DNA of 64,000 bases from the NCBI GenBank assembly GCA_021555105.2, contig CP134604.1, forward strand, positions 1,116,001 through 1,180,000, read 5' to 3'. This DNA is from Thalassospiraceae bacterium LMO-JJ14 (lineage in GTDB: Bacteria; Pseudomonadota; Alphaproteobacteria; Rhodospirillales; Casp-alpha2). Positions within the stretch are counted from its first letter, which is position 1, and each line of letters opens with the position of its first letter. Below, piece by piece: positions 29,737-49,497 of this stretch. The notes under the pieces are model-generated. The model was not told where the DNA came from. It searched no databases and saw only the letters and a program-made list of their open reading frames with translations. The position numbers were made by a program, and so were the translations under genes.

Positions 29737-30474
29737 TCAGGATTTGTCCCTGAGTTCCAGGCGTGCCCGCGCATTCATGCGCCGAGCGATGCCCAGTCCG
29801 TCTTCGAGAGACACATTCTCACAGTCCTTGGTGAGTTCCTTGATCCAGGCGAGAATCCTCGGGTCGTGCGCCTTGATCGCCGCGGCCCACGCCTGTGCTT
29901 CGCCAAGCGCTTCTCCCACGGCAACGACTTTGCTGACAAGTCCGAGAGCGAACATGTCCTCGGCGCTATACTGCTTGCCGCTCGCCAGAAACTCGAACGC
30001 TCTGCGCGGCCCCACCCGTTTCACAAGGTTTGGCGTTACCAGTGCCGGCATGACGCCTTTCTTGATCTCCGGATACCCGAAAACCGCATTGTTCGAGGCG
30101 ATAAGGAAATCGCAGGCCAGCGCCAGACCGCAGCCGCCACCGAGCGCATAGCCTTCGACCGCCGCGAATGTCGGCTTGGTCATGCGCGGAATTGCCAGGA
30201 ACAGATCGGCCACGCGGCCTGCATGGGCGACGATCTCCGTTTCTTCCTTGAGGGCCGATGTTTCCTTAAGGTCCACGCCGGCACTGAAGGCCTTGTCGCA
30301 GCCCCCTAGTACGACGGCCTGTACCCCGGCATCATCCTCCGCGTCATGCAAGGCGACGGTGAGGGCTTCGATCAGTTCGCGTCCAAGTGCGTTGAGTTTT
30401 TCAGGGCGCGACAGCGTCAAGGTGCGGACGCCGTTGTCGTCATCAAGTCGAAGGCATGAAGACGTGCTGCTCAT
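29737..30474 (-). CDS. Enoyl-CoA hydratase/isomerase-family (crotonase) protein
   Basis: A crotonase-fold protein of 245 residues. The oxyanion-hole loops are AFSAGVDLKE (about 62-71) and ALGGGCGLALACD (110-122). Of the two hydratase glutamates, the first is replaced by Gly (G116) while the second is retained as E136 in YPEIKKG, so ordinary syn-hydration is doubtful and another crotonase reaction is possible. It starts at 30474, overlapping the upstream flavoprotein gene by ATGA, and ends the three-gene minus operon carboxyltransferase-flavoprotein-crotonase. An in-frame extension to 30540 lies in the flavoprotein and was rejected. Confidence 0.85.
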   Translation of the reverse strand: MSSTSSCLRLDDDNGVRTLTLSRPEKLNALGRELIEALTVALHDAEDDAGVQAVVLGGCDKAFSAGVDLKETSALKEETEIVAHAGRVADLFLAIPRMTKPTFAAVEGYALGGGCGLALACDFLIASNNAVFGYPEIKKGVMPALVTPNLVKRVGPRRAFEFLASGKQYSAEDMFALGLVSKVVAVGEALGEAQAWAAAIKAHDPRILAWIKELTKDCENVSLEDGLGIARRMNARARLELRDKS

Positions 30475-32063
30475 GGCGCCGGTTTCCGGCTTTCCAGTTT
30501 GCTTGCCTCGCTGGCGGCGATGCGGCCGCCGACGAAGCATTCCGCAAGATTTCCGCCACCGACATACAGATGTCCGAACACACTGCCCAACTCGCCGGCG
30601 GCATACAGCCGCGGGATCGGTTCGCCGAACGGGTTGAGGATTTCCTGCCTGACGTTATGGCGCGGCCCACCTTGCGTGTTGATGACGACCGGATAGATCT
30701 CCGCGAAATAATATGGCGGGGTTTGAATAGGCACCATGGTGTCGGGCTGTCGGCCGAACTCTTCATCGTGGCCGGCGGCGACGGCGGCATTCCAGGTTTC
30801 GAAGGTGCGCTTCAACTGGTTTGCGCCGACATTCAGCTTGGCGGCCAACTCCTCGATCGTGTCGGCTTTGATCAGGATGCCGTTCTCGACCTCTTTGAGG
30901 TTGTCCGGACTCCAGTCGTAGTGCGCATCGGCGTCGTTGTAGGCTGTGCGGCCCATGGCGTACATCTGCCGGCCGTGTTCATCGAAGATAGCATACGCCG
31001 GGATGCGCGGGAATTTCTGCCGTTTCGAATCGTACTGATCGAGGGGCCGGATACCGGTGTCGCCAGGATAGGGCGGGTATTCGTCCATGAACCGCTTGCC
31101 GTCCTGATCGACCAGTATCCACGCGATCTTGGCGAGCGATTTCTGTGACAGCGGCTTGCCCGCGTCATCGACGACACCAAGATCGGAAACGCTTTCCGGG
31201 TGCCCCGGCGTCCACATCGGCACGGCTTTCATGTACAGACCGAATGGATATTTCCCCGAAGGATCCTTCATGCCGTAGGGGCCGTGATAATGCCACATGT
31301 GCCAAAGGTCGGCGCCGACCGCCTGCGCCATGCGGATGCCGTCGCCGGTATTGCCGGCGAACGAGCCGGTCAGGACCGGCTGCGCCTGGAAATACTGTTG
31401 CTTCATTTCGTCATCGTTCTCAAAGCCGCCGCAGGTCAGGATCACCGCCTTGGCGGCATGAATCATAACGTCCTTGCCGTCGATGCGGGCCATGATGCCG
31501 CAAACCTCGCCCTGAGAATCGGTAATCAGTTTTTGCGCCGGCGCATTGTAATGAACCGGTATATTGCGTTTCTGGACATTATCTTCGAGGACCTTGAACA
31601 GCCGCCCGCCGTTTTTCGTCGCGTGGGTCGCGTGGTAGCGCGTGCCGTTCTCGAGTGCCGGTACTTCGCTGACTTCGCAATACGCCAATGCCTCGCAGCC
31701 CGGGAGCGGATAGTTGCCGAGCGCCGGCGTGACCTTGACCGTGGCGCCGTTGATCTCGGCCAACCCTCGCAGATAGGCCGGGACCTGGGTCATCCCGTCG
31801 GCAAGAACTTTGAGAATATCGTCCGGGGTTCGTCCGCCGCAGGTCGCCTTCAGATAGGCAAAGGCCTCGTCGGCGCTTTCGGAAACACGGATGCCCCCGG
31901 CGGAAACAGCGGAAAGCCCGCCCGGAAAGGGCATCTTTTCAAGGATCATGACACGGGCGCCGGCGTCCGCTGCATCAATTGCGGCGACGCCGCCGGCAGC
32001 ACCGAAGCCGACAATGACGATATCGGTTTCGATATCCCAGGCAGCAATGTTTTCAAGTTTCAT
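30471..32063 (-). CDS. FAD-dependent oxidoreductase, fumarate reductase/3-ketosteroid dehydrogenase type
   Basis: A flavoprotein of 530 residues (FAD-binding 2 fold). The N-terminal dinucleotide motif is VIVGFGAAGGVAAIDAADAG with ILEKMPFPGG, near residues 16-50. GTRYHATHATKNGGRLFKVLEDNV and AVILTCGGFENDDEM are shared with fumarate-reductase flavoproteins and ketosteroid dehydrogenases. The C-terminal LYAAGELGSVFGHLYVGGGNLAECFVGGRIAA closes the FAD site. No signal peptide or heme domain is present, so it is cytosolic. It is encoded between the carboxyltransferase and the crotonase, suggesting an alpha,beta-desaturation or enoate-type reduction of the same acyl substrate. The electron partner is unknown. 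Confidence 0.85.
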   Translation of the reverse strand: MKLENIAAWDIETDIVIVGFGAAGGVAAIDAADAGARVMILEKMPFPGGLSAVSAGGIRVSESADEAFAYLKATCGGRTPDDILKVLADGMTQVPAYLRGLAEINGATVKVTPALGNYPLPGCEALAYCEVSEVPALENGTRYHATHATKNGGRLFKVLEDNVQKRNIPVHYNAPAQKLITDSQGEVCGIMARIDGKDVMIHAAKAVILTCGGFENDDEMKQQYFQAQPVLTGSFAGNTGDGIRMAQAVGADLWHMWHYHGPYGMKDPSGKYPFGLYMKAVPMWTPGHPESVSDLGVVDDAGKPLSQKSLAKIAWILVDQDGKRFMDEYPPYPGDTGIRPLDQYDSKRQKFPRIPAYAIFDEHGRQMYAMGRTAYNDADAHYDWSPDNLKEVENGILIKADTIEELAAKLNVGANQLKRTFETWNAAVAAGHDEEFGRQPDTMVPIQTPPYYFAEIYPVVINTQGGPRHNVRQEILNPFGEPIPRLYAAGELGSVFGHLYVGGGNLAECFVGGRIAASEASKLESRKPAP

Positions 32064-32093
32064 AGGACAGGCGTTCCTGTTGGGCGTAATGGA

Positions 32094-33632
32094 TCAGGGG
32101 TCGATACGGTGCTTGAATCCGGTGGTGCGGACACTTTGTGCGCGCGCGAACGTGCTTTTGATTATGTCGCGCGTTTCGGCGGGAAGAATGACGTCATCGA
32201 TCAGCGCCATCTCCGCTGCATGGTGCGCGGCGGCGACCTCTTCGGCTTCCTTCAGATAGGCCGCGCGGGTGGCGGCCGGATCAGGCGACGCGGCAATCTT
32301 CTTGCCGTAGCTCAATTCGACACCGGCCGCAGGCCCCATCACGTCGAACTGTGCCGTCGGCCAGGCGACGATCGTGTCCGGTCCCATGGTCTTGCCGCCC
32401 ATTGCAAGATAGGCGAGGCCGATGGCCTTGCGGATAACGATCGTGGTGATCGGAACGGTCGTTGCGATCATTGTATTCAGGAACCGCGCAGCCAATGAAA
32501 CCATACGCTGATTCTCGATCTCAGGCCCAACGACGAAGCCGGGGCAGTCGGTCAGGAACACCAGGGGTATGTGATATGCGTCGCACAGCTCGACGAATTT
32601 CCGGGCCTTGCGGATGGCCTTGTCGTCCAGCGCACCGGCCCAGTGTTTCGGCTGGTTGGCGACGATCCCGACCACTTCGCCGTCGATGCGGCTCCAGGCT
32701 GTAATCAGGTTGCGGCCGTACAGTTCGCGGTAGTGGAAGAATTCCCCATTGTCGACGATCAGTCGGACCAGTTTTTCCATGTCGTAGGCGCGCCGGTGAT
32801 TGTCGGAAACGAGGGCATCGATTTCTTCGCGCCCCTCTGGCGTGTCGATCGGTGCCGGTGCCGGTTCGGCGCGCGGCGGCAGCTCGTCGCAGTTGTTGGG
32901 AAAGTAAGACAGGAATTCGCGGATAGAGCGGATGCAGTCCTGTTCGTCGCTGGCCATGTAATCGACCTGACCGGTTTCCTTGGCAGCTTTCTCGGCGCCG
33001 CCGACTTCCTCTGCGGTGACGTCGCGGCCGATGCCGACCTTAACCACAGGCGGGCCGGACATCCCCATGTATCCCGTCGGATTGACGATCGTGACGAAGT
33101 CGGACTGCATTGCCGTGAAGGACGGGCCGCCGAAGCAAGGCCCCATGAAAGCGGAGACGACGGGCGCGTGGCCGGAAAGTCTGTAGTGTTCCCGGAACCG
33201 GTCGCCGATACCGGCGGCAATGGCGCCGTTGGCTTCCTGGAAACGGCCGGCGCCGGCCTCCATCAATGCGATATAAGGTGCGTTATGCTTGGCGCAAAGT
33301 TCGCGGATGCGGCGCGTTTTCGCTTCGCCGATGCGACCGCGCGTGCCGGCCAGCACGGTGTAGTCATCGGAGGTGACGTAGACGGTGCGGCCATGAATTT
33401 TTCCGGACCCGGCGATCAAGCCGTCCGCCGGCGTGCGGTCATGAAGTGTCGGGTGCTGGCTGCGGGCCAGGATGCCGATCTCTTCGAATGTGCCGGGGTC
33501 CAGCAATAAATCGATACGCTCGCGTGCGGTTAGTTTGTTTTTTTGATGCAAAGCATCGATTTTTTCCTGACCGCCCATTTGCATAGCTTCCCGGCGGCGG
33601 CGTTCAAGCTCTTCAATCGTCGTTTTTTCCAT
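32094..33632 (-). CDS. Acyl-CoA carboxylase carboxyltransferase (beta) subunit
   Basis: A biotin-dependent carboxyltransferase of 512 residues with the two fused crotonase-like halves. The N half has KLTARERIDLLLDPGTFEEIG and the oxyanion loop GPCFGGPSF. The C half has NQPKHWAGALDDKAIRKARKFVELCDAYHIPLVFLTDCPGFVVG and MGGKTMGPDTIVAWPTAQFDVMGPAAGVEL. It transfers CO2 from carboxybiotin to an acyl-CoA such as propionyl-, methylcrotonyl- or another branched acyl-CoA. I chose ATG 33632 (MEKTTIEELERRRR) after GGGGCGAAC over the 90-base longer frame. The biotin carrier is divergent at 33846 and a biotin carboxylase lies at 59502, so the complex appears to be assembled from scattered genes. Confidence 0.9.
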   Translation of the reverse strand: MEKTTIEELERRRREAMQMGGQEKIDALHQKNKLTARERIDLLLDPGTFEEIGILARSQHPTLHDRTPADGLIAGSGKIHGRTVYVTSDDYTVLAGTRGRIGEAKTRRIRELCAKHNAPYIALMEAGAGRFQEANGAIAAGIGDRFREHYRLSGHAPVVSAFMGPCFGGPSFTAMQSDFVTIVNPTGYMGMSGPPVVKVGIGRDVTAEEVGGAEKAAKETGQVDYMASDEQDCIRSIREFLSYFPNNCDELPPRAEPAPAPIDTPEGREEIDALVSDNHRRAYDMEKLVRLIVDNGEFFHYRELYGRNLITAWSRIDGEVVGIVANQPKHWAGALDDKAIRKARKFVELCDAYHIPLVFLTDCPGFVVGPEIENQRMVSLAARFLNTMIATTVPITTIVIRKAIGLAYLAMGGKTMGPDTIVAWPTAQFDVMGPAAGVELSYGKKIAASPDPAATRAAYLKEAEEVAAAHHAAEMALIDDVILPAETRDIIKSTFARAQSVRTTGFKHRIDP

Positions 33633-34811: not shown

Positions 34812-34865
34812 AGAATATTGATCTGGAACCGCGCCGCGATTCTGGATGTCCGGGCAGGAGGAAAC

Positions 34866-36020
34866 ATGGACTTTGCACAAACCGAGAGCCAAAAGGAACT
34901 CGTTGAGGCCGCACGTGAGGCATATGCCCGCAAGCTTGAGCCGTTAACCGCCGACAAATCGCCGGAAGGTGTCCGCAAGCTGCGAAAGGCAATGGCGGAA
35001 CAGGGATTGCTGGGACTGAACATGCCCACGGAATATGGCGGTCTCGGCTTGCCTCTTCTCGACACGGTGATGGTCATTCAGGCACTGCATGCCTGCTCGC
35101 CTGCTACAGGCGGTCTGGCGCACCGGACGTCGACGGGCGCTTGCGGTGCAATCGAGGCTTATGGGACAGACGAGCAGAAGGAAAAATACCTGCGCGGAAT
35201 CTCGCAGGGCGATATCGGTATTTCCATTGGTATCACCGAACCCGAAGCGGGATCGGCGGCGACGGCGATGCGGACAAGGGCGGAAGTTGTCGGTGACGAA
35301 GTCGTTATCAACGGCAGCAAGCAGTTTGTCAGCGCGGTCGATGTTAACGATTTTACCGTCTTGTATTGCCGCTTCGGCAACACCGGCAAGTCCGCCGATA
35401 TCGGTGCCGTGATCGTGCCGCACGACGCGCCGGGATTCAGCCGCTCGACCGGAACGGTAAACATGGCCGATGAGCTGTTGTTTGAATTGTACTTCGACGA
35501 CTGCCGGGTGCCGAAATCCAATATCCTGCTGGACGGCAATGCCTTCGGTAAACTGATCAGCGTCTATAACGCCGAACGACTTGGCAGTATTTCCAGGATG
35601 CTCGGCTCGGCCCAGGCGGCGTACGAATATGCGCTCGAATATTCCAAGGAGCGCCGTCAGTTCAATCGCGAGATCAGCGACTTCCAGGGCATCCAGTGGA
35701 TGCTGGCGGAAATGCGGGTCAAACTGGATGCGGCGCAACTGCTGACCTACCGGGCAGCATCCACGGCGCAGGCGACAGGCCTGCCCGATGCGCTTGAGAC
35801 CTCGATCGCCAAGGTCTTTACGGCGACGGCGGCCAAGGAAATCTGCGACGACGCAATCCAGATCATGGGTGCCAACGGATATACCAAGGAATATCCGCTT
35901 GCGCATCGCTATGCCGAAGTACGTGGCGGCTCGATCTATGGCGGCACCGTGCAGATCCACAAGAACATGATCGCCGGAAAGATTCTCGGGCGCAGTAACA
36001 GTCAGTGGAAAAAGAACTAA
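34866..36020 (+). CDS. Acyl-CoA dehydrogenase
   Basis: An FAD flavoprotein of 384 residues. It has ITEPEAGSAATAMRTRAE (about 123-140), FDDCRVPKSNIL, RRQFNREISDFQGIQW, QIMGANGYTKEYPLAHRYAEVRGGSIYGGTVQIHKNMI. The IYEGT-type Glu is Gly here (IYGGT), and E237 in YNAERLG fits the isovaleryl-CoA dehydrogenase position for the catalytic base. The start at 34866 follows GGAGGAAAC, and a frame from 34818 would add unlikely residues. It opens the operon dehydrogenase-MaoC-rhodanese-hydrolase (34866-38992) under the palindrome at 34795-34811. It introduces the double bond in an unknown, perhaps branched, acyl-CoA. Confidence 0.9.
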   Translation: MDFAQTESQKELVEAAREAYARKLEPLTADKSPEGVRKLRKAMAEQGLLGLNMPTEYGGLGLPLLDTVMVIQALHACSPATGGLAHRTSTGACGAIEAYGTDEQKEKYLRGISQGDIGISIGITEPEAGSAATAMRTRAEVVGDEVVINGSKQFVSAVDVNDFTVLYCRFGNTGKSADIGAVIVPHDAPGFSRSTGTVNMADELLFELYFDDCRVPKSNILLDGNAFGKLISVYNAERLGSISRMLGSAQAAYEYALEYSKERRQFNREISDFQGIQWMLAEMRVKLDAAQLLTYRAASTAQATGLPDALETSIAKVFTATAAKEICDDAIQIMGANGYTKEYPLAHRYAEVRGGSIYGGTVQIHKNMIAGKILGRSNSQWKKN

Positions 36021-36042: not shown

Positions 36043-36501
36043 GTGTCGGAAATTGACCGCTCATTGATCGGATCGGAATCGGCCCCTTATGTGGTCGAAG
36101 TCGAGAAAGGTGCCATACGTAAATTTGCGGACGCCATTGGCGACGCTTCTGCGTTTTATCGTGATGAGGCTGCTGCGAAAGAAAACGGATATCCCGGGAT
36201 CATTGCCCCGCCGACATTTCCGGTTTCATTCTATCCGCCGGAAGAGCCGGCGTGGACGCGTGATCTCGACCGCAAACGCATCCTGGCCGGTGAGCAGGGC
36301 TTCAGGTATTCCCGCCCGATCGTCGCCGGCGACGTGCTGACCTGCAGGATCGTTTTCAAATCCGTTGAGGAAAAACAGGGCAAGTCCGGCCGCATGGAAA
36401 TCCTCTATCAGGAAGTCATCGGCGAGGACGGTGACGGCAATCACGTCTTCACGAACTGGAAGTCCACCGTCTACCGGGAATCCCCCAACGAGCTTAAGTA
36501 A
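36043..36501 (+). CDS. MaoC/FAS1-like dehydratase subunit (N-terminal type)
   Basis: A hot-dog-fold protein of 152 residues of the N-terminal MaoC (FAS1-like dehydratase) group. The motif GDASAFYRDEAAAKENGYPGIIAPPTFPVSF replaces the catalytic GDxNxxH, with the His position occupied by Tyr. It is therefore probably a non-catalytic partner that binds the CoA substrate. Such subunits work as heterodimers with a catalytic MaoC. The only candidate in view is at 58211. Translation begins at GTG (36043) after a near-perfect GGAGGAAAC, 22 bases behind the dehydrogenase, and ends 11 bases before the rhodanese gene. Confidence 0.82.
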   Translation: MSEIDRSLIGSESAPYVVEVEKGAIRKFADAIGDASAFYRDEAAAKENGYPGIIAPPTFPVSFYPPEEPAWTRDLDRKRILAGEQGFRYSRPIVAGDVLTCRIVFKSVEEKQGKSGRMEILYQEVIGEDGDGNHVFTNWKSTVYRESPNELK

Positions 36502-36512
36502 GGACGCGCGTC

Positions 36513-38126
36513 ATGGATTTTACTTCGGTCCAGGATCTACATTCGGCTTGCAATGCAGAAGACGGCATCTGGCCACACCGCAGCTGGGCGCTATTTGATG
36601 TGCGTGAGCTTGGCGAAGCGCAGAAGGGGCATATTCCCGGCGCGACGTTCCTGCCGCGTCGCATGATCGAACTCAGGCTGGAGGAACTCCTGCCTGCGCC
36701 GAAAACCCGCATCGTCGTTTATGACGATGGCGGCGATGACAGTCGTGCGACGCGTGCGGCGCAAACCATGTCGGATTTCGGATACGTGAATGTCAGTGTG
36801 CTGGAAGGCGGCTTGCGCTCCTGGCAGGCGGCAGGCCATGAAGTGGCAACCGGTTGGAACGTGCCGTGCAAGGACTTTGGCGAGCGATTGCTGGTTTCGA
36901 GCAAGGTTCCCTATATCACGTCGGATGATCTGGCTGCCCGGATCGATGCCGGCGAGAACATCGGTGTGTTCGATGTCCGCACACCGCAGGAATACACGGA
37001 AGGGTCCTTGCCGGTCAGCACATCCGCGCCATCGTTCGACTGGAGTCTGCATGTCGATGACTGGGCCAGGAACTATGACGGCATCGTCATTCATTGCGCG
37101 GGGCGGACGCGCTCGATCTTCGGTACGGAAACAGGGCGTCTGCTCGGGATGAAGAATCTGTGGGCGCTGGAAAACGGCACCATGGGATGGCGTCTTTCGG
37201 ACCGCGAGCTGGCCGCCGGGCAGAACCGCACACTGCCGCCACCGAGCATGGACAGCATCGCCGGGGTGCGAGACCGGGCGCTGGAACTCGCCAGTGCCGA
37301 GGGGGCGAAAATCCTCACACCGGCCGAACTGAGCCAGCGTGTCGACGCCCGGCTCGAAAAGCCGATTTACATTTTCGATACCCGCGACGTCGCGGCTTTC
37401 AAGAACGGCCACATCTGCAGTTCGATCCTGCTGCCCGGCGGTCAGGCGTGTCAGCGGGCCGACGATTTCGCCGCCGTACCGGACGCGGATATTGTCTTCG
37501 TGGATGATAACGATTCCCGTGCCGGCGTGACGGCGTACTGGTATCGCCGCATGGGCTTCCGCAATGTTTTTGTTTTGCAAGGCGGTGTCGAGGCGTGGCG
37601 TGTGGCAGGCTTGCCGATCGCGACGGGTCGCGGCCGAACGCCGCCGCTGGGTTTATCCGAAGCCGAGACGGCGACGCCGTCATGCAGTCTTGATGAACTG
37701 AACGCGGCTTTGGCGGCAGACGCGGCGTTAGTGGTTGTCGACGTCGGCAAAGGCAGCGATTACAAGGCATGCCATGTCAAAGGCGCGCACTGGATACCGA
37801 GAGGATATCTTGAGGACCGGATCGCCGACACGGCGACGCCGTCGCAGCCGGTCGTTATCACGGCCCGCGATCCTGCGCAGGCGGCGTACGCGGCCGCAGC
37901 CCTGGCCGGCATGGGCTACGGCGATGTCCGGTGGCTGAATGCGCCGGGCAAGACCTGGCAGGGGGCGATTTCAACGGAGGCCGGTTCGGCCGGCGACGAT
38001 GCGCTGATCGATGACGCGCTCGCCATTCCATATAAGAAGACCAAAAAAGAGATGGTCGAATATCTGGAATGGGAAGAAAAGCTGGGCGAGAAGTATAAAG
38101 CTGCCGGCTCGGACGAGAGTGCGTAA
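36513..38126 (+). CDS. Tandem four-domain rhodanese-like protein
   Basis: A protein of 537 residues with four consecutive rhodanese domains, at about 8-115, 132-240, 268-375 and 390-490. The active-site loop in each is DDGGDDSRA (71-79), CAGRTRS (195-201), DDNDSRA (331-337) and ARDPAQA (451-457). Only the second carries the catalytic cysteine (C195), so it has one possible persulfide site and three inactive domains. The tail after about 500 is charged (KKTKKEMVEYLEWEEKLGEKY). Two- to four-domain rhodaneses act as thiosulfate or 3-mercaptopyruvate sulfurtransferases or as sulfur carriers. It is inside an acyl-CoA operon, 11 bases behind MaoC and 5 bases ahead of the hydrolase. Confidence 0.88.
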   Translation: MDFTSVQDLHSACNAEDGIWPHRSWALFDVRELGEAQKGHIPGATFLPRRMIELRLEELLPAPKTRIVVYDDGGDDSRATRAAQTMSDFGYVNVSVLEGGLRSWQAAGHEVATGWNVPCKDFGERLLVSSKVPYITSDDLAARIDAGENIGVFDVRTPQEYTEGSLPVSTSAPSFDWSLHVDDWARNYDGIVIHCAGRTRSIFGTETGRLLGMKNLWALENGTMGWRLSDRELAAGQNRTLPPPSMDSIAGVRDRALELASAEGAKILTPAELSQRVDARLEKPIYIFDTRDVAAFKNGHICSSILLPGGQACQRADDFAAVPDADIVFVDDNDSRAGVTAYWYRRMGFRNVFVLQGGVEAWRVAGLPIATGRGRTPPLGLSEAETATPSCSLDELNAALAADAALVVVDVGKGSDYKACHVKGAHWIPRGYLEDRIADTATPSQPVVITARDPAQAAYAAAALAGMGYGDVRWLNAPGKTWQGAISTEAGSAGDDALIDDALAIPYKKTKKEMVEYLEWEEKLGEKYKAAGSDESA

Positions 38127-38131
38127 GCGGC

Positions 38132-38992
38132 ATGGTACCGTCTTCCGGAAATCGGGCCTGGCTTGGAATGGCGGAAGTCGAGCGCCTGGACCGGTCGGCG
38201 AAGAAACATGAAACCCCTTGCGGGGACGGCATCATGGTTTGGCGCGAATGGGGTGCCGGCCCGGCGCTGGTTCTGCTGCATGGCGGTTTCGGCTCGTGGA
38301 AGCACTGGGTCAGCAATATTCCCGCACTGGCGGACACGTTCACCGTTTATGCCGCGGACCTGCCGGGACTGGGCGATTCCAATATGCCGCCGGAACCCAT
38401 CAGCGCGGAAAGTGTCGGCGACATTATCGGGGACGGCATCGATGCACTGATTGGCCCCGATGCCCGTTTCAGCATCGGCGCGTTTTCCCTGGGCGCGGTC
38501 ATCGCGACGCTGATCGTTAAGTCGCGTTACGCGCGTGTCGATCAGGCCGTGTTTATCGGCGCCGGCGGCCTGGGGCCTTATTGGCGCAACGCGGTCGGCG
38601 ATTTACGCCGCCGCAGTTCGTCAATGACCGAGGAAATGCTGCGCGATCTGGTGCGCGAGAACCTGAGCCAGACCATGATCGGCAATCCGGCATTGATCGA
38701 TGAGGATGTAATCACATTGCAATTGGGCCTGCTGAACAGGCGGGAGCGCCTGATCGGGCTGCCCATGTCGGAGTCAGATATTGTCCTGCGCTGCCTGCCG
38801 GTGATCGCTGAAAAGTCGGTTTTCGTCTGGGGGCGTATGGATCCCTATCTGGATCCGGATGTCGGGCAGGGCATTGAACGGTTGCAAAAGGAATTCCCTT
38901 CGCTCGATGCGCGGATCATCGAGGATGCCGGGCACTGGGCCAATTTCGAGCAACCCAAGCGCATAGAGCAACTTTTCCTTGAGCGGCTTTAG
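38132..38992 (+). CDS. Alpha/beta hydrolase (copy 1)
   Basis: An alpha/beta-hydrolase of 286 residues. Nucleophile S119 is in GAFSLGAVIA, the oxyanion motif LLHGGFGSWKHW is at 48-59, the acid is probably in WGRMDPYLD near residue 237, and the His is in AGHWANFEQP near 266. It is clearly paralogous to the hydrolase at 58648-59505 (IHGGFGSWTHW, GGGHWVMYE). Like that one, it follows a MaoC-type gene. MhpC-like C-C hydrolases, esterases and thioesterases all share the fold, so CoA-thioester release or ring-fission product cleavage are possibilities only. An alternative start at 38168 (MAEVERLDR) is possible. It ends the operon from 34866. Confidence 0.85.
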   Translation: MVPSSGNRAWLGMAEVERLDRSAKKHETPCGDGIMVWREWGAGPALVLLHGGFGSWKHWVSNIPALADTFTVYAADLPGLGDSNMPPEPISAESVGDIIGDGIDALIGPDARFSIGAFSLGAVIATLIVKSRYARVDQAVFIGAGGLGPYWRNAVGDLRRRSSSMTEEMLRDLVRENLSQTMIGNPALIDEDVITLQLGLLNRRERLIGLPMSESDIVLRCLPVIAEKSVFVWGRMDPYLDPDVGQGIERLQKEFPSLDARIIEDAGHWANFEQPKRIEQLFLERL

Positions 38993-39151: not shown

Positions 39152-40624
39152 ATGGTAGGTCTGACCGGCTTCGGTGGATATGTACCTCGGTTGAGGTTGT
39201 CGAGGAAAAGCGCCGCGGATGCGAACGGCTGGATACAGCCGGGTGTGAAGCGCTTCGGCAAGGGTGAACGAAGCATCTGCAACTGGGATGAGGACAGCGT
39301 CACGATGGCGGTCGAAGCCGCACGTGATTGCCTGGAGGAAAAGCCGGACCGCGAGATCGCCTCGATCTACATGGGATCGACGACGTTTCCGTTTCAGGAC
39401 CGTCAGAACGCAGGCATCGTCGCCGCGGCCATGAACCTCGATGAAAATCTTTCCACTGTCGATATCGGTGCATCGCAACGCGCCGGCACCTCGGCATTGG
39501 GTGCGGCACTCGACGCGGCCAAGGGTGTGGACAACCAACATATTCTTGTGCTCGCCAGCGATGCCCGGCGGACACGCGCCGGCGCCCAGGACGAAATGAT
39601 TTTCGGCGATGGTGCGGCATCCCTGATGGTGGGCAATACCGGTGTCCTCGCAGAACTGGTTGGGCGCCATTCCGTTGCCATCGATTTCGTCGATCACTAT
39701 CGGGGTGAAAACCGCGCCTACGACTACAACTGGGAAGAACGCTGGATCCGCGATGAAGGCATTCTGAAGATCGTGCCCGATGCAATTAACACCGCCTTGT
39801 CGAAGGCCGGGGTTGCGCCGGATAGCGTGAACACATTGATCGTCCCCTCGGCGATGAAACGGGTGCCTTCGAAAATTGCCAAAATGACCGGAATCGCCGA
39901 AGACGCGCTGATGGAATCCATGGATGGCGTGATCGGTGAAACCGGCTGTGCGCATCCGTTATTGATGCTGTCGCTGGCGCTGGAAAGCGCGGTTGCGGGG
40001 CAGATCATTGTAGCGGCGTCGTTCGGTCAGGGATGTGACGTGCTGATCTTCAAGGTCACGGATGCAATCGCGTCATATAAAAAGAAAGCCGGTGTTTCCG
40101 GTTACATCGCGCGCCGCCGCGAAGAAACCAACTACGGCAAATTCATGGCCTTCAACGACCTGGTCGTACAGGAAAAGGGCATGCGCGCCGAGCTGGATAA
40201 TCAGACCGCGCTTACCCAGCTATATCGCCGCCGCGACATGCTGAACGGTCTTGTCGGCGGTGAGTGCGAGAAATGCGGCACGCGGCAGTTTCCGCGCTCC
40301 AGGGTCTGCGTCAATCCGAACTGCAATGAATGGAATTCGCAAAAGCCGTTCGTATTTTCGAATGTGCCGGCAAAGATCATGACATGGTCGGCAGACCACC
40401 TGACATACTGCCCCGATCCGCCGTTGCATTACGGGATGATCCAATTCGAGGGCGGTGGCCGGTTTCTTGCCAACTTCACCGACGCCGATGTCGGCAAGGT
40501 CGGGGTCGGGCAGGATGTCCGCATGATGTTCCGGATCAAGGATTTTGATAACAACCGCGGGTTCCGGAGATATTTCTGGAAAGCAGCACCCGCTATGGCA
40601 AATGAGGCACAGAACAATGGCTAA
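39152..40624 (+). CDS. HMG-CoA-synthase-like protein fused to DUF35 OB-fold/zinc ribbon
   Basis: A 490-residue protein. Residues 1-340 have the thiolase-like fold in the order seen in archaeal HMG-CoA synthases: MVGLTGFGGYVPRLR, then MGSTTFPFQDRQNAG and the glycine-rich end VAASFGQGCD. The stretch DIGASQRAGTSALG (104-117) aligns with the archaeal LEFACKAGT block, but Gln109 stands where the nucleophilic Cys should be and I see no other candidate. Residues 365-490 form a DUF35 module with zinc-ribbon cysteines C372, C375, C386 and C391, then an OB-fold. In archaea DUF35 bridges acetoacetyl-CoA thiolase and HMG-CoA synthase. Here the fusion precedes an SCP2-like thiolase with an 8-base overlap, so a similar complex is likely. 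The start at 39152 follows GGAGGAAAC. Confidence 0.85.
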   Translation: MVGLTGFGGYVPRLRLSRKSAADANGWIQPGVKRFGKGERSICNWDEDSVTMAVEAARDCLEEKPDREIASIYMGSTTFPFQDRQNAGIVAAAMNLDENLSTVDIGASQRAGTSALGAALDAAKGVDNQHILVLASDARRTRAGAQDEMIFGDGAASLMVGNTGVLAELVGRHSVAIDFVDHYRGENRAYDYNWEERWIRDEGILKIVPDAINTALSKAGVAPDSVNTLIVPSAMKRVPSKIAKMTGIAEDALMESMDGVIGETGCAHPLLMLSLALESAVAGQIIVAASFGQGCDVLIFKVTDAIASYKKKAGVSGYIARRREETNYGKFMAFNDLVVQEKGMRAELDNQTALTQLYRRRDMLNGLVGGECEKCGTRQFPRSRVCVNPNCNEWNSQKPFVFSNVPAKIMTWSADHLTYCPDPPLHYGMIQFEGGGRFLANFTDADVGKVGVGQDVRMMFRIKDFDNNRGFRRYFWKAAPAMANEAQNNG

Positions 40625-41819
40625 TGGAATCAGAGATAAAGTCGCGATCATTGGCATGGGGTGTTCGAAGTTCGGTGAACGCTGGGATTGCGATGCCGAA
40701 GACCTGATGGTTGAAGCGTTCGAGGAATGCATTGAGGACGCGGGGATCGACTTCAAGGAAATCCAGGCCGCCTGGCTGGCCACGGCGATCGAGGAAATCC
40801 ACGTCGGCAAGGGCGGCCTGCCGCTCGCCTTCGCGCTACGCCTGCCGTATATCCCCGTGACGCGGGTCGAGAATTTCTGTGCCAGCGGTTCCGAAGCGCT
40901 GCGCGGCGCGACCTATGCGGTTGCGTCGGGAGCCTGCGATATCGCCCTGGCGCTTGGCGTGGAGAAGCTGAAGGACACCGGCTATGGCGGCTTGCCGCAA
41001 CGCAGCCGGGGATCGCTCAATTCCATGTGGTGGGCCAACTATTCCGCGCCGGGTTCGTTTGCCCAGTTGGCGTCGGCATACCGGGGCAAGCACGGCATTG
41101 ATGCAGCCGAATTGAAGCGCGCCATGGCACACATTTCAATCAAAAGTCACGATAACGGCGCCAAGAATCCGAAGGCTCACCTGCAGCGTCAGATCACCGA
41201 GGAACAAGTGCTGTCCGCACCGATGGTGGCCGAGCCGCTTGGCATTTACGACTGTTGCGGCGTCAGCGACGGTGCCGCCTGCGCCATCGTGACCACGCCG
41301 GAAATCGCCAAGGCGATGGGCAAGAAGGATCTGATCACGGTCAAGGCACTGCAGCTTTCCGTCTCCAATGGGATCGAAGCCGGCCACAATTCATGGGATG
41401 GCAGCTATTTCATGACGGCGCGGATTGCCAGCAAGCGTGCCTATGAAGAAGCCGGGATTCGTAATCCACGTGAAGAGATCAGTCTTGCCGAAGTACATGA
41501 CTGCTTCTCGATTACCGAGTTGGTGACGATGGAAGATCTGTATCTGTCACCCGAAGGCGGCGCGGTGAAAGACGTTCTTGACGGATTTTACGATTCCGAC
41601 GGTGGGCTGCCGTGCCAGATCGACGGCGGCCTCAAGTGTTTCGGCCACCCGATCGGATCGTCCGGGCTGCGCATGATCTATGAATTGTATCTGCAAATGC
41701 AGGGTCGTGCCGGCAAACGGCAGGTCAGCAATCCGACGATGGGCCTGACGCATAATCTGGGCGGCGCGCCGCATCAGAATGTGTGCTCGGTTGCGATTAT
41801 CGGTCAAATGGGCGCGTGA
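40617..41819 (+). CDS. SCP2-type thiolase / acetyl-CoA acetyltransferase-like
   Basis: A thiolase of 400 residues of the SCP2/BbsB branch. The catalytic Cys is C88 in RVENFCASGSEALRGATYAV, the His motif is CFGHPIGSSGLRM near 339, and the ending NLGGAPHQNVCSVAIIG supplies the second Cys. The start ATG (40617) overlaps the stop of the HMG-CoA-synthase-like/DUF35 gene by 8 bases. SCP2-type thiolases often need a DUF35 partner (for example BbsA with BbsB in benzylsuccinate degradation, and the archaeal thiolase complex). It would thiolyse a 3-oxoacyl-CoA, perhaps branched. Note that the second Cys is present here and lost in the biotin-operon thiolase at 11157. Confidence 0.9.
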   Translation: MANGIRDKVAIIGMGCSKFGERWDCDAEDLMVEAFEECIEDAGIDFKEIQAAWLATAIEEIHVGKGGLPLAFALRLPYIPVTRVENFCASGSEALRGATYAVASGACDIALALGVEKLKDTGYGGLPQRSRGSLNSMWWANYSAPGSFAQLASAYRGKHGIDAAELKRAMAHISIKSHDNGAKNPKAHLQRQITEEQVLSAPMVAEPLGIYDCCGVSDGAACAIVTTPEIAKAMGKKDLITVKALQLSVSNGIEAGHNSWDGSYFMTARIASKRAYEEAGIRNPREEISLAEVHDCFSITELVTMEDLYLSPEGGAVKDVLDGFYDSDGGLPCQIDGGLKCFGHPIGSSGLRMIYELYLQMQGRAGKRQVSNPTMGLTHNLGGAPHQNVCSVAIIGQMGA

Positions 41820-41848: not shown

Positions 41849-42763
41849 ATGGGGAAAATGCTTGAGGGCAAGGTAGCGATCGTTACCGGTTCCGGCCGCG
41901 GTATTGGCCGTGGCATTGCCGAGATGATGGCCGAGAATGGTGCCCGGGTCGTTATCAACGACCTTGGCGCGACGGAAGCCGGCGAGGGGCAGGATACGGG
42001 GCCGGCCACTGAGGTCGCCGAGGCGATCAAGTCCAAGGGCGGCGATGCCATCGTCAACGGCGACAGCGTCGCAAGTTGGGATGGCGCGCATGCGATGGTC
42101 GACGCCGCGCTTTCAAAATGGGGGCGCATTGATTGCGTCGTCAATAATGCCGGCATCTTGCGCGACACCATATTTCACAAGATGGAAGAAGCGGATTTCG
42201 ATGCCGTGATCGGCGTGCACCTGAAAGGCGCCTTTAACGTATCGCGCGCCGCCGCACCGCATTTCAGACAACAGGGTAGTGGCGCATATGTGCACATGAC
42301 GTCGAATTCAGGGCTGATCGGCAACTTCGGACAATCGAACTATGCCGCCGCAAAAATGGGGATTGTCGGCCTGTCGAAATCGATCGCCCTGGATATGGCC
42401 AGATTCAATGTCCGCTCGAACTGCATCTCACCGACGGCATGGAGCCGGTTGACGGGTTCCATTCCGCAGGAAACGGAAGATCAGAAGGCGCGCGTGAAGA
42501 AAATCATGGCGATGACGCCTGATAAAATCGCGCCGCTGGCGACATTCTTATGCAGCGATGATGCCGACGCCGTTAACGGTCAGATCTTTGCCGTGCGGAA
42601 CAATGAAATTTTCTTCATATCCCAGAACCGGCCAATTCGCTCAGTGCACAATTCCGAAGGATGGACGCCGGAACGGATCAAGGATCACGCGATGCCGGCC
42701 TTGCAGGCCTCGTTCTATGACCTTGATCGTTCGGCGGATGTCTTCAGTTGGGACCCGATCTGA
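41849..42763 (+). CDS. SDR-family 3-hydroxyacyl-CoA dehydrogenase (MFE-2 type)
   Basis: An SDR of 304 residues with cofactor motif TGSGRGIG (13-20), NNAG (99-102), and the catalytic S152/S154, Y165 and K169 in TSNSGLIGNFGQSNYAAAK. After the Rossmann core it has a C-terminal extension (FAVRNNEIFFISQNRPIRSVHNSEGWTPERIKDH) seen in MFE-2-like dehydrogenases that oxidise (3R)-hydroxyacyl-CoA. This fits between a MaoC-type hydratase and the adjacent thiolase. The start 41849 follows AAAGGGAT by seven bases. It closes the operon 39152-42763 and ends 32 bases before the tail of the convergent MocR gene. Confidence 0.9.
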   Translation: MGKMLEGKVAIVTGSGRGIGRGIAEMMAENGARVVINDLGATEAGEGQDTGPATEVAEAIKSKGGDAIVNGDSVASWDGAHAMVDAALSKWGRIDCVVNNAGILRDTIFHKMEEADFDAVIGVHLKGAFNVSRAAAPHFRQQGSGAYVHMTSNSGLIGNFGQSNYAAAKMGIVGLSKSIALDMARFNVRSNCISPTAWSRLTGSIPQETEDQKARVKKIMAMTPDKIAPLATFLCSDDADAVNGQIFAVRNNEIFFISQNRPIRSVHNSEGWTPERIKDHAMPALQASFYDLDRSADVFSWDPI

Positions 42764-44577: not shown

Positions 44578-46191
44578 ATGAACGAGTTTGCAGGAAAAAC
44601 ATACGCTGAAGCGATCTCCATGGTTTGCACCCGCTATGCGGACCGGAAAGCGCTGGTTTTTCAAGGCATGCATTATTCCTTCGCAGATATCAAAGATGAA
44701 ATCGATAATGCATCGCGCCGTCTTCTTGAACTTGGTCTGCGTCGGGGCGACAAAATTTCCGTCTGGATGCCGAATTGCCCTGAGTTCATCTTTATCTGGA
44801 TGGGGGCGTCCCAGATCGGGCTGGTAACGGTCATGTTGAATACCCGGCTCCGCATCGAAGAAGCGCAATACCAGATCATGCAGTCCGATAGCCGTGCGGT
44901 CGTCGTCCCGGGCGGCGGCGCGTACCGGGATTTCCTCGGCGATGTGCTGACGATGTTGCCAAAGGACAGCGGCGCGGCGGGTGCAGGTATTGGTGGCGGC
45001 AATCTGCCGATGCTGGAATACATCATTACAACCGGGCTGAAAGGGGAACATGGGCCAGGCATGTACCACTGGCCGGACATAACGTTCGCGGAAAACAGTG
45101 CCATCGACTATGAAACCGATCCCCAGGCTCCGGCGCAGATTGTTTACAGTTCGGGCACGACGGCGCTGCCGAAGGGCGTGATGTTGTCGCACGCCGTCTG
45201 GCGCAAGGCTGCCGACCATGGCGCGCGGTTCTATCAGAATCCTGACGACCAGCTATATCTCTGCATTCCGCTGTTCTCGATATTATCGACCGTAAACGGG
45301 GTAATGACGTTCTGGGTCGGCGGCTCGTCCGTTGCGCTGGACGATCAATTCGACGCCGAGAGGCTGCTTTCGACGGTGCAGGCCGAACGAAGCACGGCGA
45401 TTTATCTTCTGCCGGTCATGATGAACCGGATGCTCGAACTGCCGGATTTTGACAGTTATGACATTTCAAGCCTGCGGACCGGCATTCTGCTGACGCTTGA
45501 GCGGGACGTCTATATGACGGCGGTCGAAAAATTCGGGATCGATGGCGTCTTTACCAGTTACGGGATGACGGAAACCTCAAGCGCATGCACGCGGACCTGG
45601 GCCGACGATCCTTTGGAAACACGCATTACGACGCACGGCAAGCCCTTGCCGGATATTGAGGTACGCATCGCCGATCCGGATACGAACCGGGAACTGCCGC
45701 CGGGACAGATCGGCGAGATCCAGGTGCGCGGCTACAACACGATGATTGGTTATTACAACAAGCCCGAGGAAACCGCGCGCGCGTTCACCGCCGACAGGTG
45801 GTACAAAACCGGCGACGCCGGCGAAATGCTCAGCGACGGATCGTTCAGATTTATCAGCCGTCTGGTCGATGGCTACAAACACAAGGGATTCAATGTCTCC
45901 ACTGCGGAAGTGGAGACGGTTTTATCGCGTCACCCGTCGGTCGCGGAAGCGGCGGTAACGGCCATACCTCACAAGGATTTCGGCGAAGTTGGCGTTGCTT
46001 TTGTCATCCTTGCGCCGGACACCGCTTTCGATGAAGCGGGGATGATCGAATTCGTCAAAGAGCATCTGGCGACCTTCAAGGTGCCGGCACATGTGTTTGA
46101 GACGGATTCCTTCCCGACGACCTCAGGCACCGGAAAAGTCCAGAAGTTCAAGTTGCGCGAACAGGCGCTCGAACTGCTGCAAGCGAAATAA
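44578..46191 (+). CDS. AMP-forming acyl-CoA ligase 1
   Basis: An adenylate-forming acyl-CoA synthetase of 537 residues. The ATP loop YSSGTTALPKGVM is near residue 190, TSYGMTETSSACT near 327, the adenylate-binding KTGDAGEMLSDG near 412, and the C-terminal catalytic lysine is K520 in SGTGKVQKFKLRE. It activates a carboxylic acid to a CoA ester. It is the first of three consecutive paralogues (44578, 46236, 47875), which share the opening TYAEAI/TYAQSI and the C-terminal VQKFKLRE. The operon continues with a membrane protein and a crotonase. ATG 44578 follows GGAGTAAAT. The paralogues may serve different acids of the same pathway. Confidence 0.88.
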   Translation: MNEFAGKTYAEAISMVCTRYADRKALVFQGMHYSFADIKDEIDNASRRLLELGLRRGDKISVWMPNCPEFIFIWMGASQIGLVTVMLNTRLRIEEAQYQIMQSDSRAVVVPGGGAYRDFLGDVLTMLPKDSGAAGAGIGGGNLPMLEYIITTGLKGEHGPGMYHWPDITFAENSAIDYETDPQAPAQIVYSSGTTALPKGVMLSHAVWRKAADHGARFYQNPDDQLYLCIPLFSILSTVNGVMTFWVGGSSVALDDQFDAERLLSTVQAERSTAIYLLPVMMNRMLELPDFDSYDISSLRTGILLTLERDVYMTAVEKFGIDGVFTSYGMTETSSACTRTWADDPLETRITTHGKPLPDIEVRIADPDTNRELPPGQIGEIQVRGYNTMIGYYNKPEETARAFTADRWYKTGDAGEMLSDGSFRFISRLVDGYKHKGFNVSTAEVETVLSRHPSVAEAAVTAIPHKDFGEVGVAFVILAPDTAFDEAGMIEFVKEHLATFKVPAHVFETDSFPTTSGTGKVQKFKLREQALELLQAK

Positions 46192-46235
46192 GCCTCAATC
46201 TATAAAAACAAGATCTGGTATGGAGACACGAACGG

Positions 46236-47870
46236 ATGAATCCTTTTCTAAATATGACATACGCTCAGAGCATTGCCTATATCGCCGACAAATTCGGCGA
46301 TCGGGAAGCGGTTGTCTTTCGTGATCAGAGATTTACCTACGCCGATGTTAAACGCGAAATCGACAGTGCTTCGGCGCGGTACGCCTCGCTCGGTTTAAAG
46401 CCGGGCGACAAGGTTGCCATCCTGCTGCCGAACCGTCCCGAATTCATCTGGTGCTGGCTGGGCGCGTCGCAAATGGGGCTGGTCGCCGTGATGATCAACA
46501 CCAGGCTGCGTCAGGAGGAATTGTCCTATCAATTGGCACAATCCGATACGCGTGCCGTCGTCATCCCGGGCGAGGGGGCGTTCCGCGACTTTCTTGATGA
46601 ACTGAGCGAGCTGGCACCGGCCATTCGCGATGGCGCGCCCGGGGCGCTGGGCAGCGAGAAGCTACCCGAGCTTTCATATGTGCTGGTGGTTGATGATTTC
46701 GATACTCAGTACAAGGGGGCGCTTTCATGGTCCGAACTGGCGCTTGATGATCTGCCATTGCCTGAAATGGAAAAGGATCCAAACGTCGCCGGGCTGATAA
46801 GCTACAGTTCCGGCACGACGGCCCTGCCGAAGGGCGCGATGATTACGCACTGCGTCTGGCGCAAGGCCTATGACATCGGGGATCGTGTGGATATGACGTC
46901 GGAGGACTGCCTGTATATGGCAATTCCGATGTTCGGCTCCATGGCGGTTCTGAACGGCGTTCTGCCCTATCTGGCGCGGGGGGCGAAACTGGTCATTGGC
47001 GAGCAGTTCGATGCCGATAAATGTCTGGCAGCGATCGAACAGGAAAAAGTGACGGCGATGCATCTGTTGCCGCCAACGGTCAAGCAGTTGATCGAATGTC
47101 CGAACTTCGATAAGTATGACCGCTCGTCGCTTAAAATCTCATATACTTTATCGATCGACCCGGACATTCTCGATGCAGTTGCAGACGTCATCGGCATCCC
47201 CGGCGTGATGACCGGATATGGCCTGACGGAGACGACGACCGTGGCCACGCGTAACCGTTGGGATGACTCACGCGAGATCCGTCATACGACACAGGGATGG
47301 GCGCTGCCGGACGTCGAAATCAAGGTTGTCGATCCCGAGACCTTCAAGGAACTGCCTGAAAACGAACCCGGCGAGCTTTGGGTGCGCGGTTATTGTGTGA
47401 TGCTTGGATACTACAAGAAGCCCAAGGAAACCGAAGCCGCCATTCGCCCCGATGGCTGGTTCAGGACAGGGGACATGGGAAAGATGGATTCCACCGGCAG
47501 GATTCAATTCCTGGGCCGGTTGGGCGACGGTTATAAATCGCGCGGCTTTAATGTCTCGCCGGAAGAAGTCGAATTCACGATTAACCAGCACCCGTCGGTC
47601 TATGCCGCCGCCGTGATCGGCGTGGCGGACCCGGTCGCGGAAAAAATCGGCGCGGCGTTCATCGTCAAGCGCAAGGGTTGCGAGCTTGATGAGCAGGCGC
47701 TCCTGGATTTCCTCAAGCCGAAACTCTCCGGCTACAAGATGCCGAAGTACGTTTTATTCGTCGATGAGCTGCCGCTCACCCCGGGAACCGGCAAGGTGCA
47801 GAAATTCAAGCTGCGTGAACTTGCCGCGGACCTCCTGGAGTTGGAAAATTTTTCTGCAAAGAGGGCATGA
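46236..47870 (+). CDS. AMP-forming acyl-CoA ligase 2
   Basis: An acyl-CoA synthetase of 544 residues, paralogous to its neighbours. It has YSSGTTALPKGAM near residue 189, MTGYGLTETTTV near 326, WFRTGDMGKMDSTG near 408, and the catalytic lysine in PGTGKVQKFKLRE near 523. The gene starts 44 bases after ligase 1 with GGAGACACGAACGG upstream, and stops just 4 bases before the ligase 3 ATG. Its mid part (FDTQYKGALSWSELALDDLPL) differs clearly from ligase 1, so the acyl-binding pockets are likely not identical. Confidence 0.88.
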   Translation: MNPFLNMTYAQSIAYIADKFGDREAVVFRDQRFTYADVKREIDSASARYASLGLKPGDKVAILLPNRPEFIWCWLGASQMGLVAVMINTRLRQEELSYQLAQSDTRAVVIPGEGAFRDFLDELSELAPAIRDGAPGALGSEKLPELSYVLVVDDFDTQYKGALSWSELALDDLPLPEMEKDPNVAGLISYSSGTTALPKGAMITHCVWRKAYDIGDRVDMTSEDCLYMAIPMFGSMAVLNGVLPYLARGAKLVIGEQFDADKCLAAIEQEKVTAMHLLPPTVKQLIECPNFDKYDRSSLKISYTLSIDPDILDAVADVIGIPGVMTGYGLTETTTVATRNRWDDSREIRHTTQGWALPDVEIKVVDPETFKELPENEPGELWVRGYCVMLGYYKKPKETEAAIRPDGWFRTGDMGKMDSTGRIQFLGRLGDGYKSRGFNVSPEEVEFTINQHPSVYAAAVIGVADPVAEKIGAAFIVKRKGCELDEQALLDFLKPKLSGYKMPKYVLFVDELPLTPGTGKVQKFKLRELAADLLELENFSAKRA

Positions 47871-47874
47871 CTCC

Positions 47875-49497
47875 ATGTCCCATGGCAAGGAAAACAACCC
47901 GTTCAGGGGACTGACATATGCGCAGTCGATCAATCATATCGCGGATACCTATGGCGATAAAACTGCCCTGACATTCCAGGGGCGGTCATACTCGTTTCGC
48001 GACCTGAAGCGTGAAGCGGACCTGGCATCGTCCCGTCTTGTTGCGCTTGGGGTGCGGCCTGGCGAAAGCATCGGAATCTGGATGCCGAACCGTCCCGAGT
48101 TTCCTTTCCTGTGGTTCGGCGCGGCGCAGATCGGCGTCATACCGGTTATAATCAATACACGCCTCAAACAGCACGAGTTCGAGTATCAGATCAGGCAATC
48201 CAAAAGCGTGGCGATCTTCGTGCCCGGGGCGGGGGCGTTCCGGGATTTTATCGGTGAATTGACGCAATCCCATCCCGCCATCGCATCGGGCAAACTCCCA
48301 TCTGACCCGTTCCCCGATTTACGATCCGTCGTTTCCATGGATCCGGTGCCCGACAATGCCGGCAACGTTATCGGCTGGCATGATCTTGGAGAAGATCATC
48401 CGGTGCCGGCATATAACACGGACCCCGATTCCGTCGGCCTCATCGCCTACAGTTCCGGGACGACATCCCTTCCCAAGGGCGCGATGCTGTCGCATTGCAT
48501 ATGGCGCAAGGCGTTCGACGGTGGCCGGTATCTGAGGCTGACGTCGGCGGACAGCCTTTACCTGACGGTGCCATTGTTCGGCGTGCTTGGATGCCTCAAC
48601 GGGTTGTTGATGTTCTGGTCCAGGGGCTGCGAGATTCATTTGCGCGAACGATTTGATGAAGAGGACTTCATAACGTCGCTGAGCGAGACAAGGTGCACGT
48701 TTGCGCATTTGCTGCCGACCATGATCGAACGCATCGCCAGACACCCTGCTTATGACAAGGACAAATTCAAATCCTTGCGCGGCGGCGTGATCCTGAGCAG
48801 CCAGGGCAGTCATTTCCTGCGCGCCATCGAGGTTTTGGGGGCGGAGGGATTTACCTCGGGTTACGGACTAACGGAATCCACAGGGTTGGTCAGCCGGTGC
48901 TATCTGGATGACCCGCTTGAGGACCGGTTGGGCCATCAGGGCTGGCCTTTGCCGGACTGCCCGATCCGCATCGTAGACCCGGAAACGAGGGAAGACCTGC
49001 CACCTGGGCAGGAAGGCGAAATCGTCATCGGCGGATACTCGGTAATGTTGGGCTATTTCGACAAACCGGAAGAAACGCAAGCATGCATATCGGATGACGG
49101 CTGGCTTTATTCAGGCGACCTCGGGGTCATGAGCGAAGCCGGTGCGCTGAAGTTCCTGCGACGGGTCAAGGACGGCTACAAACACAAGGGGTTCAACGTT
49201 TCGACGCCGGAAGTGGAAGCCGCCATCCTGAAATTCCCCGGGATCCGCGCAGCGGCAGTCGTCGGTGTACCGGACCCGGAATTCGGAGAAACCGGCGCGG
49301 CCTTTGTCATTCCCGACGGCGATGTGGAACTGGATGAGCATGAATTGCTGACATACCTCGACGCCGAGATTTCTTCATTTAAGGTGCCGGGCGCGGTCTT
49401 TGTTGTGAATGAATTCCCGCTGACAGGGGGCACCGACAAGGTCCAGAAGTTCAAGCTGCGCGAGCAGGCGATGTCCAGACTCGGGATTGCGGGTTGA
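47875..49497 (+). CDS. AMP-forming acyl-CoA ligase 3
   Basis: An acyl-CoA synthetase of 540 residues. The ATP loop YSSGTTSLPKGAM is near residue 192, TSGYGLTESTGLV near 328, and LYSGDLGVMSEAG near 410. The C-terminal signature reads GGTDKVQKFKLRE where its two paralogues have GTGKVQKFKLRE: the lysine stays but the preceding glycine is aspartate, which may affect adenylation. The start ATG (47875, MSHGKENNPF) lies 4 bases past the ligase 2 stop. The long frame from 47686 lies over ligase 2 and was rejected. Its stop TGA (49495-49497) precedes the next gene by 2 bases. Confidence 0.86.
   Translation: MSHGKENNPFRGLTYAQSINHIADTYGDKTALTFQGRSYSFRDLKREADLASSRLVALGVRPGESIGIWMPNRPEFPFLWFGAAQIGVIPVIINTRLKQHEFEYQIRQSKSVAIFVPGAGAFRDFIGELTQSHPAIASGKLPSDPFPDLRSVVSMDPVPDNAGNVIGWHDLGEDHPVPAYNTDPDSVGLIAYSSGTTSLPKGAMLSHCIWRKAFDGGRYLRLTSADSLYLTVPLFGVLGCLNGLLMFWSRGCEIHLRERFDEEDFITSLSETRCTFAHLLPTMIERIARHPAYDKDKFKSLRGGVILSSQGSHFLRAIEVLGAEGFTSGYGLTESTGLVSRCYLDDPLEDRLGHQGWPLPDCPIRIVDPETREDLPPGQEGEIVIGGYSVMLGYFDKPEETQACISDDGWLYSGDLGVMSEAGALKFLRRVKDGYKHKGFNVSTPEVEAAILKFPGIRAAAVVGVPDPEFGETGAAFVIPDGDVELDEHELLTYLDAEISSFKVPGAVFVVNEFPLTGGTDKVQKFKLREQAMSRLGIAG

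Follow-up and report, generated by a model that had tools for sequence, protein, structure and literature searches.

In the archaeal acetoacetyl-CoA thiolase/DUF35/HMG-CoA synthase complex (PDB 6esq/6et9), CoA lies at the joint of the thiolase, DUF35 and HMG-CoA synthase (HMGCS) subunits (PMC6392133); the HMGCS is active (Cys114, Glu82), DUF35 is a separate protein, and the complex serves the mevalonate pathway. In PhlACB (PpATase of Pseudomonas protegens, PDB 5m3k/5mg5; related 9skh), three separate proteins carry out acetyl transfer in antibiotic biosynthesis: an HMGS-like PhlA, a zinc-ribbon/OB PhlB and a thiolase, PhlC. PhlA is reported to lack both Cys and Glu, and the chemistry is done by Cys88 of PhlC, whose residues alone contact the substrate; PhlA and PhlB are thought necessary for a properly formed complex, with a cavity between all three proteins and the N-terminal tail of PhlB buried between PhlA and PhlC (PMC6392133). 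MucABC of Streptococcus macacae (PDB 9vbo/9vbt), which acetylates tetramates, likewise pairs an HMGS-like subunit without the Cys (Glu in our alignment) with a thiolase-like subunit, again as separate subunits (PMC10161427). Finally, the benzoylsuccinyl-CoA thiolase BbsAB (PDB 7pxp/7pyt) combines a DUF35 partner with an SCP2-type thiolase in the beta-oxidation of a bulky acyl-CoA; the available excerpts of its description name no HMGS-like part among its subunits.

The locus analyzed here lies in a 64,000-nucleotide stretch of Thalassospiraceae bacterium LMO-JJ14 (contig CP134604.1, positions 1,116,001 to 1,180,000; hereafter the window), where all three of these folds are encoded together, two of them in one gene. 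The first gene (39152..40624, + strand) specifies a 490-aa HMGS-like/DUF35 fusion protein, as assigned from its translation, Pfam/NCBIfam matches and an AlphaFold2 model; the second (40617..41819, +), overlapping it by 8 bases, specifies a 400-aa SCP2-type thiolase. The HMGS/KAS-III-like domain of the fusion spans residues 1-336 approximately (39152..40159, +) and is followed by a linker (residues 337-366; 40160..40249, +) and by DUF35 (residues 367-480; 40250..40591, +), which consists of a zinc ribbon (C372, C375, C386, C391) and an OB fold and matches zf-ChsH2 (Pfam PF12172) and OB_ChsH2_C (PF01796). The three folds are those of the archaeal complex, and the CoA site would be shared as it is there. 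The pair also carries what its residues indicate to be the hallmark of the PhlACB type, namely an inert HMGS-like subunit beside a thiolase subunit with an active Cys. The initial annotation had named Gln109, the 8-base overlap, the thiolase C88 and the four zinc cysteines of the window protein, and translations and coordinates bear out each of them.

To characterize the HMGS-like domain, we aligned it with archaeal HMGCS (6esq), PhlA (5m3k) and MucA (9vbo). The HMG-CoA synthase fold is present; however, the catalytic Glu, Cys and His are absent, and by alignment Thr77 stands at the Glu site, Gln109 (codon 39476..39478, +; within DIGASQRAGTSALG) in the column of the nucleophilic Cys, and Pro232 at the His site. 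PhlA, which is 24-25% identical to the fusion domain, has Gly at the Cys position. The same replacements recur among 99 distinct fusion relatives: T77 is found in 99/99 and P232 in 98/99, while the residue-109 column holds Gln in 94 and Cys in none. Judged from these sequences, Gln109 is more than a chance substitution, since the Cys is missing from every relative and the other two catalytic residues have been exchanged too, and the claim in the initial annotation that condensing activity was lost thus extends from one protein to the family. A true HMG-CoA synthase is ruled out both by the missing residues and by the scores: even the best-scoring models, the archaeal TIGR00748 and PRK04262, give 132 and 176 bits where their curated cut-offs are 353 and 244. 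A further 24 fusions, more divergent and drawn from plasmids and other genomes, hold Gln, Leu, Pro, Thr, Arg, Ala, Gly or His in this column, and none has Cys there. Displaced cysteines were considered as well: two fusions have a Cys 2 residues after the column and one has a Cys 3 residues before it.

A Gln in place of a nucleophilic Cys has a precedent in the KSQ domains of polyketide loading modules, which decarboxylate a malonyl-type thioester. The prevalence of Gln among the relatives nearest the window, the acyl-CoA carboxyltransferase gene nearby, and the structures of FabH C112Q on record (9ka5, 9ka6) would all fit an HMGS-like domain that acts in this way; however, the His and Asn partners expected for decarboxylation are gone (P232 and E263 stand in their places), and among more distant fusions Leu, Pro, Thr, Arg, Ala, Gly or His takes the place of Gln. 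A literature search for KSQ gave no paper with the terms used. We rank this reading low and regard it as extremely improbable.

The AlphaFold2 model of the fusion (pLDDT 86.8, pTM 0.90) places its HMGS-like domain closest to the archaeal HMGCS chain 6esq_I (Z 43.8 over 334 residues), followed by PhlA (Z 42-43), MucA (40), MvaS (38) and FabH (34). Two segments stand out in this model. No block of the fusion is more conserved than residues 191-200 (rank 1 of 49), yet their pLDDT is only 59 in the monomer; they lie within a loop (residues 178-203, DFVDHYR...YDYNWEERWIRDEG; 39683..39760, +). The linker behaves similarly, its residues 341-360 being conserved though unordered in the monomer model. 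Because these segments are conserved yet unordered in the monomer, and because the PhlB tail is buried in PhlACB, where it would sit at the place of the fusion linker, the 178-203 loop, with its 191-200 block, and the linker are likely contact surfaces.

The zinc ribbon had been described as intact, which holds for the window fusion but not for the family: C375, C386 and C391 are kept in 77/99 relatives and lost in 22/99. The remaining cysteine, C372 (40265-40267), is kept in 99/99, including the 22 relatives without the other three.

The thiolase, by contrast with the HMGS-like domain, retains its catalytic apparatus. It scores 698 bits against NCBIfam PRK06157 (cut-off 403) and carries the C88, HDCF and GHP motifs of that family, with C88 in the sequence NFCASGS; C88, H294 and H344 are present in 84/84 thiolase relatives. 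In its structural model (pLDDT 81, active-site loops weak) the best matches are the Pyrococcus thiolase 7yvy (Z 48.3), 6esq_A (48.1) and BbsB (48.0), ahead of the Phl and Muc proteins (Z 45-47) and of classic thiolases (about 36 or less). Ltp2 and Sal also match (Z 42.3 and 40.9). These belong to the retro-aldolases Ltp2-ChsH2(DUF35) and Sal-Shy(DUF35), which resemble the window pair in thiolase fold, DUF35 partner and occurrence in degradation clusters, and the complex could be imagined to work as they do. The Ltp2 and Sal aldolases, however, use the Tyr of a YDHF/YDCY motif (PMC12329534), whereas the window thiolase and 84/84 relatives read HDCF, without that Tyr, and keep C88 and H344 invariant; other SCP2 thiolases are also the better structural matches. 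A retro-aldolase therefore ranks low and is very improbable.

The coupling of fusion and thiolase proposed in the initial annotation is borne out well beyond the window. Among 80 named loci, 75 had enough downstream sequence to be counted, and in 74 of these the same thiolase follows on the same strand, within 150 bp in 57; the exception, L093, has no thiolase in the 5.3 kb downstream of its fusion. Simple gene calls around the 80 loci, compromised by antisense ORFs in the GC-rich DNA, were dropped, and adjacency counts alone were used. Of 240 genomes from the class, 40 have both fusion and thiolase and none has only one (Fisher p about 1e-46, a value uncorrected for kinship, so that independence is overstated), and 36 of 42 fusion-thiolase copies lie within 200 bp of each other. 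The pair travels as a unit, and it is conserved and widespread among bacteria that break down unusual carbon compounds. Nor is it special to this cluster: the fusion architecture occurs in Alpha-, Beta- and Gammaproteobacteria, in Actinomycetota and in haloarchaea. Haloarchaeal plasmids (L117:5001-6416, L142:3001-4428, L143:2992-4428) encode HMGS-like/DUF35 fusions with Thr at the Cys position, and their thiolase gene lies directly upstream instead of downstream. In the tree, 29 bacterial fusions form one group (93/89), while PhlA, MucA and archaeal HMGCS fall together (98/97), apart from the bacterial fusions, with MucA on a long branch and the root unsure; the haloarchaeal fusions may be separate.

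These placements bear on whether the pair, like Phl and Muc, is a C-acyltransferase that acylates a carbon nucleophile and cleaves no 3-oxoacyl-CoA. Both complexes with a Cys-less HMGS-like subunit that have been solved, PhlACB and MucABC, are annotated as acyltransferases, and so the relatives leave the direction of the reaction unfixed. On the other hand, the bacterial fusions do not group with PhlA and MucA, the window thiolase is nearer to CoA-dependent thiolases (6esq_A, 33% identity; BbsB, 26%) than to PhlC/MucC (21-24%), and the neighborhoods consist of beta-oxidation and ring-degradation genes. We consider a C-acyltransferase unlikely.

The window neighbors make up a complete beta-oxidation round of ligases, acyl-CoA dehydrogenase, MaoC hydratase, SDR and thiolase. 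On the + strand, profile matches identify an acyl-CoA dehydrogenase (34863..36020) and a MaoC/HadA-type hydratase (36043..36501) upstream of the pair and, directly after it, a 304-aa SDR that is probably a 3-hydroxyacyl-CoA dehydrogenase (41849..42763); three acyl-CoA ligases in a row follow (44581..49497). Between the hydratase and the fusion, Pfam identifies a protein with four rhodanese domains (36513..38126, +) and an alpha/beta hydrolase (38132..38992, +). The four-rhodanese protein, inside a beta-oxidation operon, is conserved only in the near relatives L031 and L033 (55% and 49%). Farther upstream, the opposite strand (30471-33632) encodes an acyl-CoA carboxyltransferase together with an FAD protein that resembles 3-ketosteroid dehydrogenases, a hint that the substrate is cyclic. 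Homologous pairs elsewhere adjoin ring-hydroxylating dioxygenases, acyl-CoA dehydrogenases and MaoC hydratases. Outside the pair, the operon is kept only in three near relatives, L031-L033, and its neighbors were therefore not used to fix one substrate.

Based on these comparisons, we propose that the two genes encode the subunits of a single catabolic thiolase complex in which the HMGS-like domain is an inert scaffold, a reading to which we assign a probability of roughly three in four. Homology argues for a physical complex, which would be laid out like the archaeal thiolase/DUF35/HMG-CoA synthase complex and PhlACB. During 3-oxoacyl-CoA cleavage, Cys88 of the thiolase would take the acyl group and His344 would activate CoA; the HMGS-like domain, its catalysis presumably gone, and the covalently attached DUF35 would hold thiolase dimers together and wall the shared CoA/acyl cavity. 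We infer both the direction of this reaction and its substrate, which is likely to be a bulky, branched or cyclic 3-oxoacyl-CoA because the other enzymes of a beta-oxidation round are encoded in the operon. Most likely, the fusion is the subunit that gives structure and a CoA site to a thiolase serving the beta-oxidation of bulky acyl-CoAs. Our search found no biochemistry for the fusion family, and the strict conservation of Q109, T77, R84 and D104 in the dead pocket could also point to an unrecognized activity. The earlier suggestion of a scaffold or CoA-binding subunit in a new thiolase complex stands as to the role, which is the likeliest one, but the evidence does not support a complex new in kind, PhlACB being a direct precedent and MucABC a second solved example. 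The inert HMGS-like scaffold was itself already known; what is new is a fused, catabolic lineage and the match of one of its members to the "HMG-CoA synthase" of the estrogen-degradation (edc) cluster.

In that cluster, in Novosphingobium (Caenibius) tardaugens, the "HMG-CoA synthase" EGO55_13555 adjoins the thiolase EGO55_13550; it was judged non-condensing and is one of two edc genes left without a step, since a condensing reaction would be out of place in degradation (PMC7793797). A conjugative plasmid of Novosphingobium ES2-1 carries the pair in an edc-like gene order; its fusion (L114:8992-10395) reads Leu where the Cys would stand and shares about 31% identity with the fusion of the window. 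We infer that the adjacent thiolase EGO55_13550 has EGO55_13555 as its inert subunit.

Databases label these fusions HMG-CoA synthase, KAS III or "OB-fold protein", names that imply an impossible condensing step; reading them as inert thiolase subunits puts the annotation of numerous degradation clusters right. It also offers repeated cases in which an enzyme domain loses its active site and becomes an obligate partner. More tentatively, at somewhat less than even odds, they may represent a large, unnamed lineage of two-subunit catabolic thiolases in Pseudomonadota, Actinomycetota and haloarchaea, in which the thiolase requires a dead HMGS-DUF35 subunit, with a rebuilt pocket that binds either CoA or the bulky acyl portion of the substrate. 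If true, this would supply a function for the edc gene left without a step in estrogen A/B-ring degradation.
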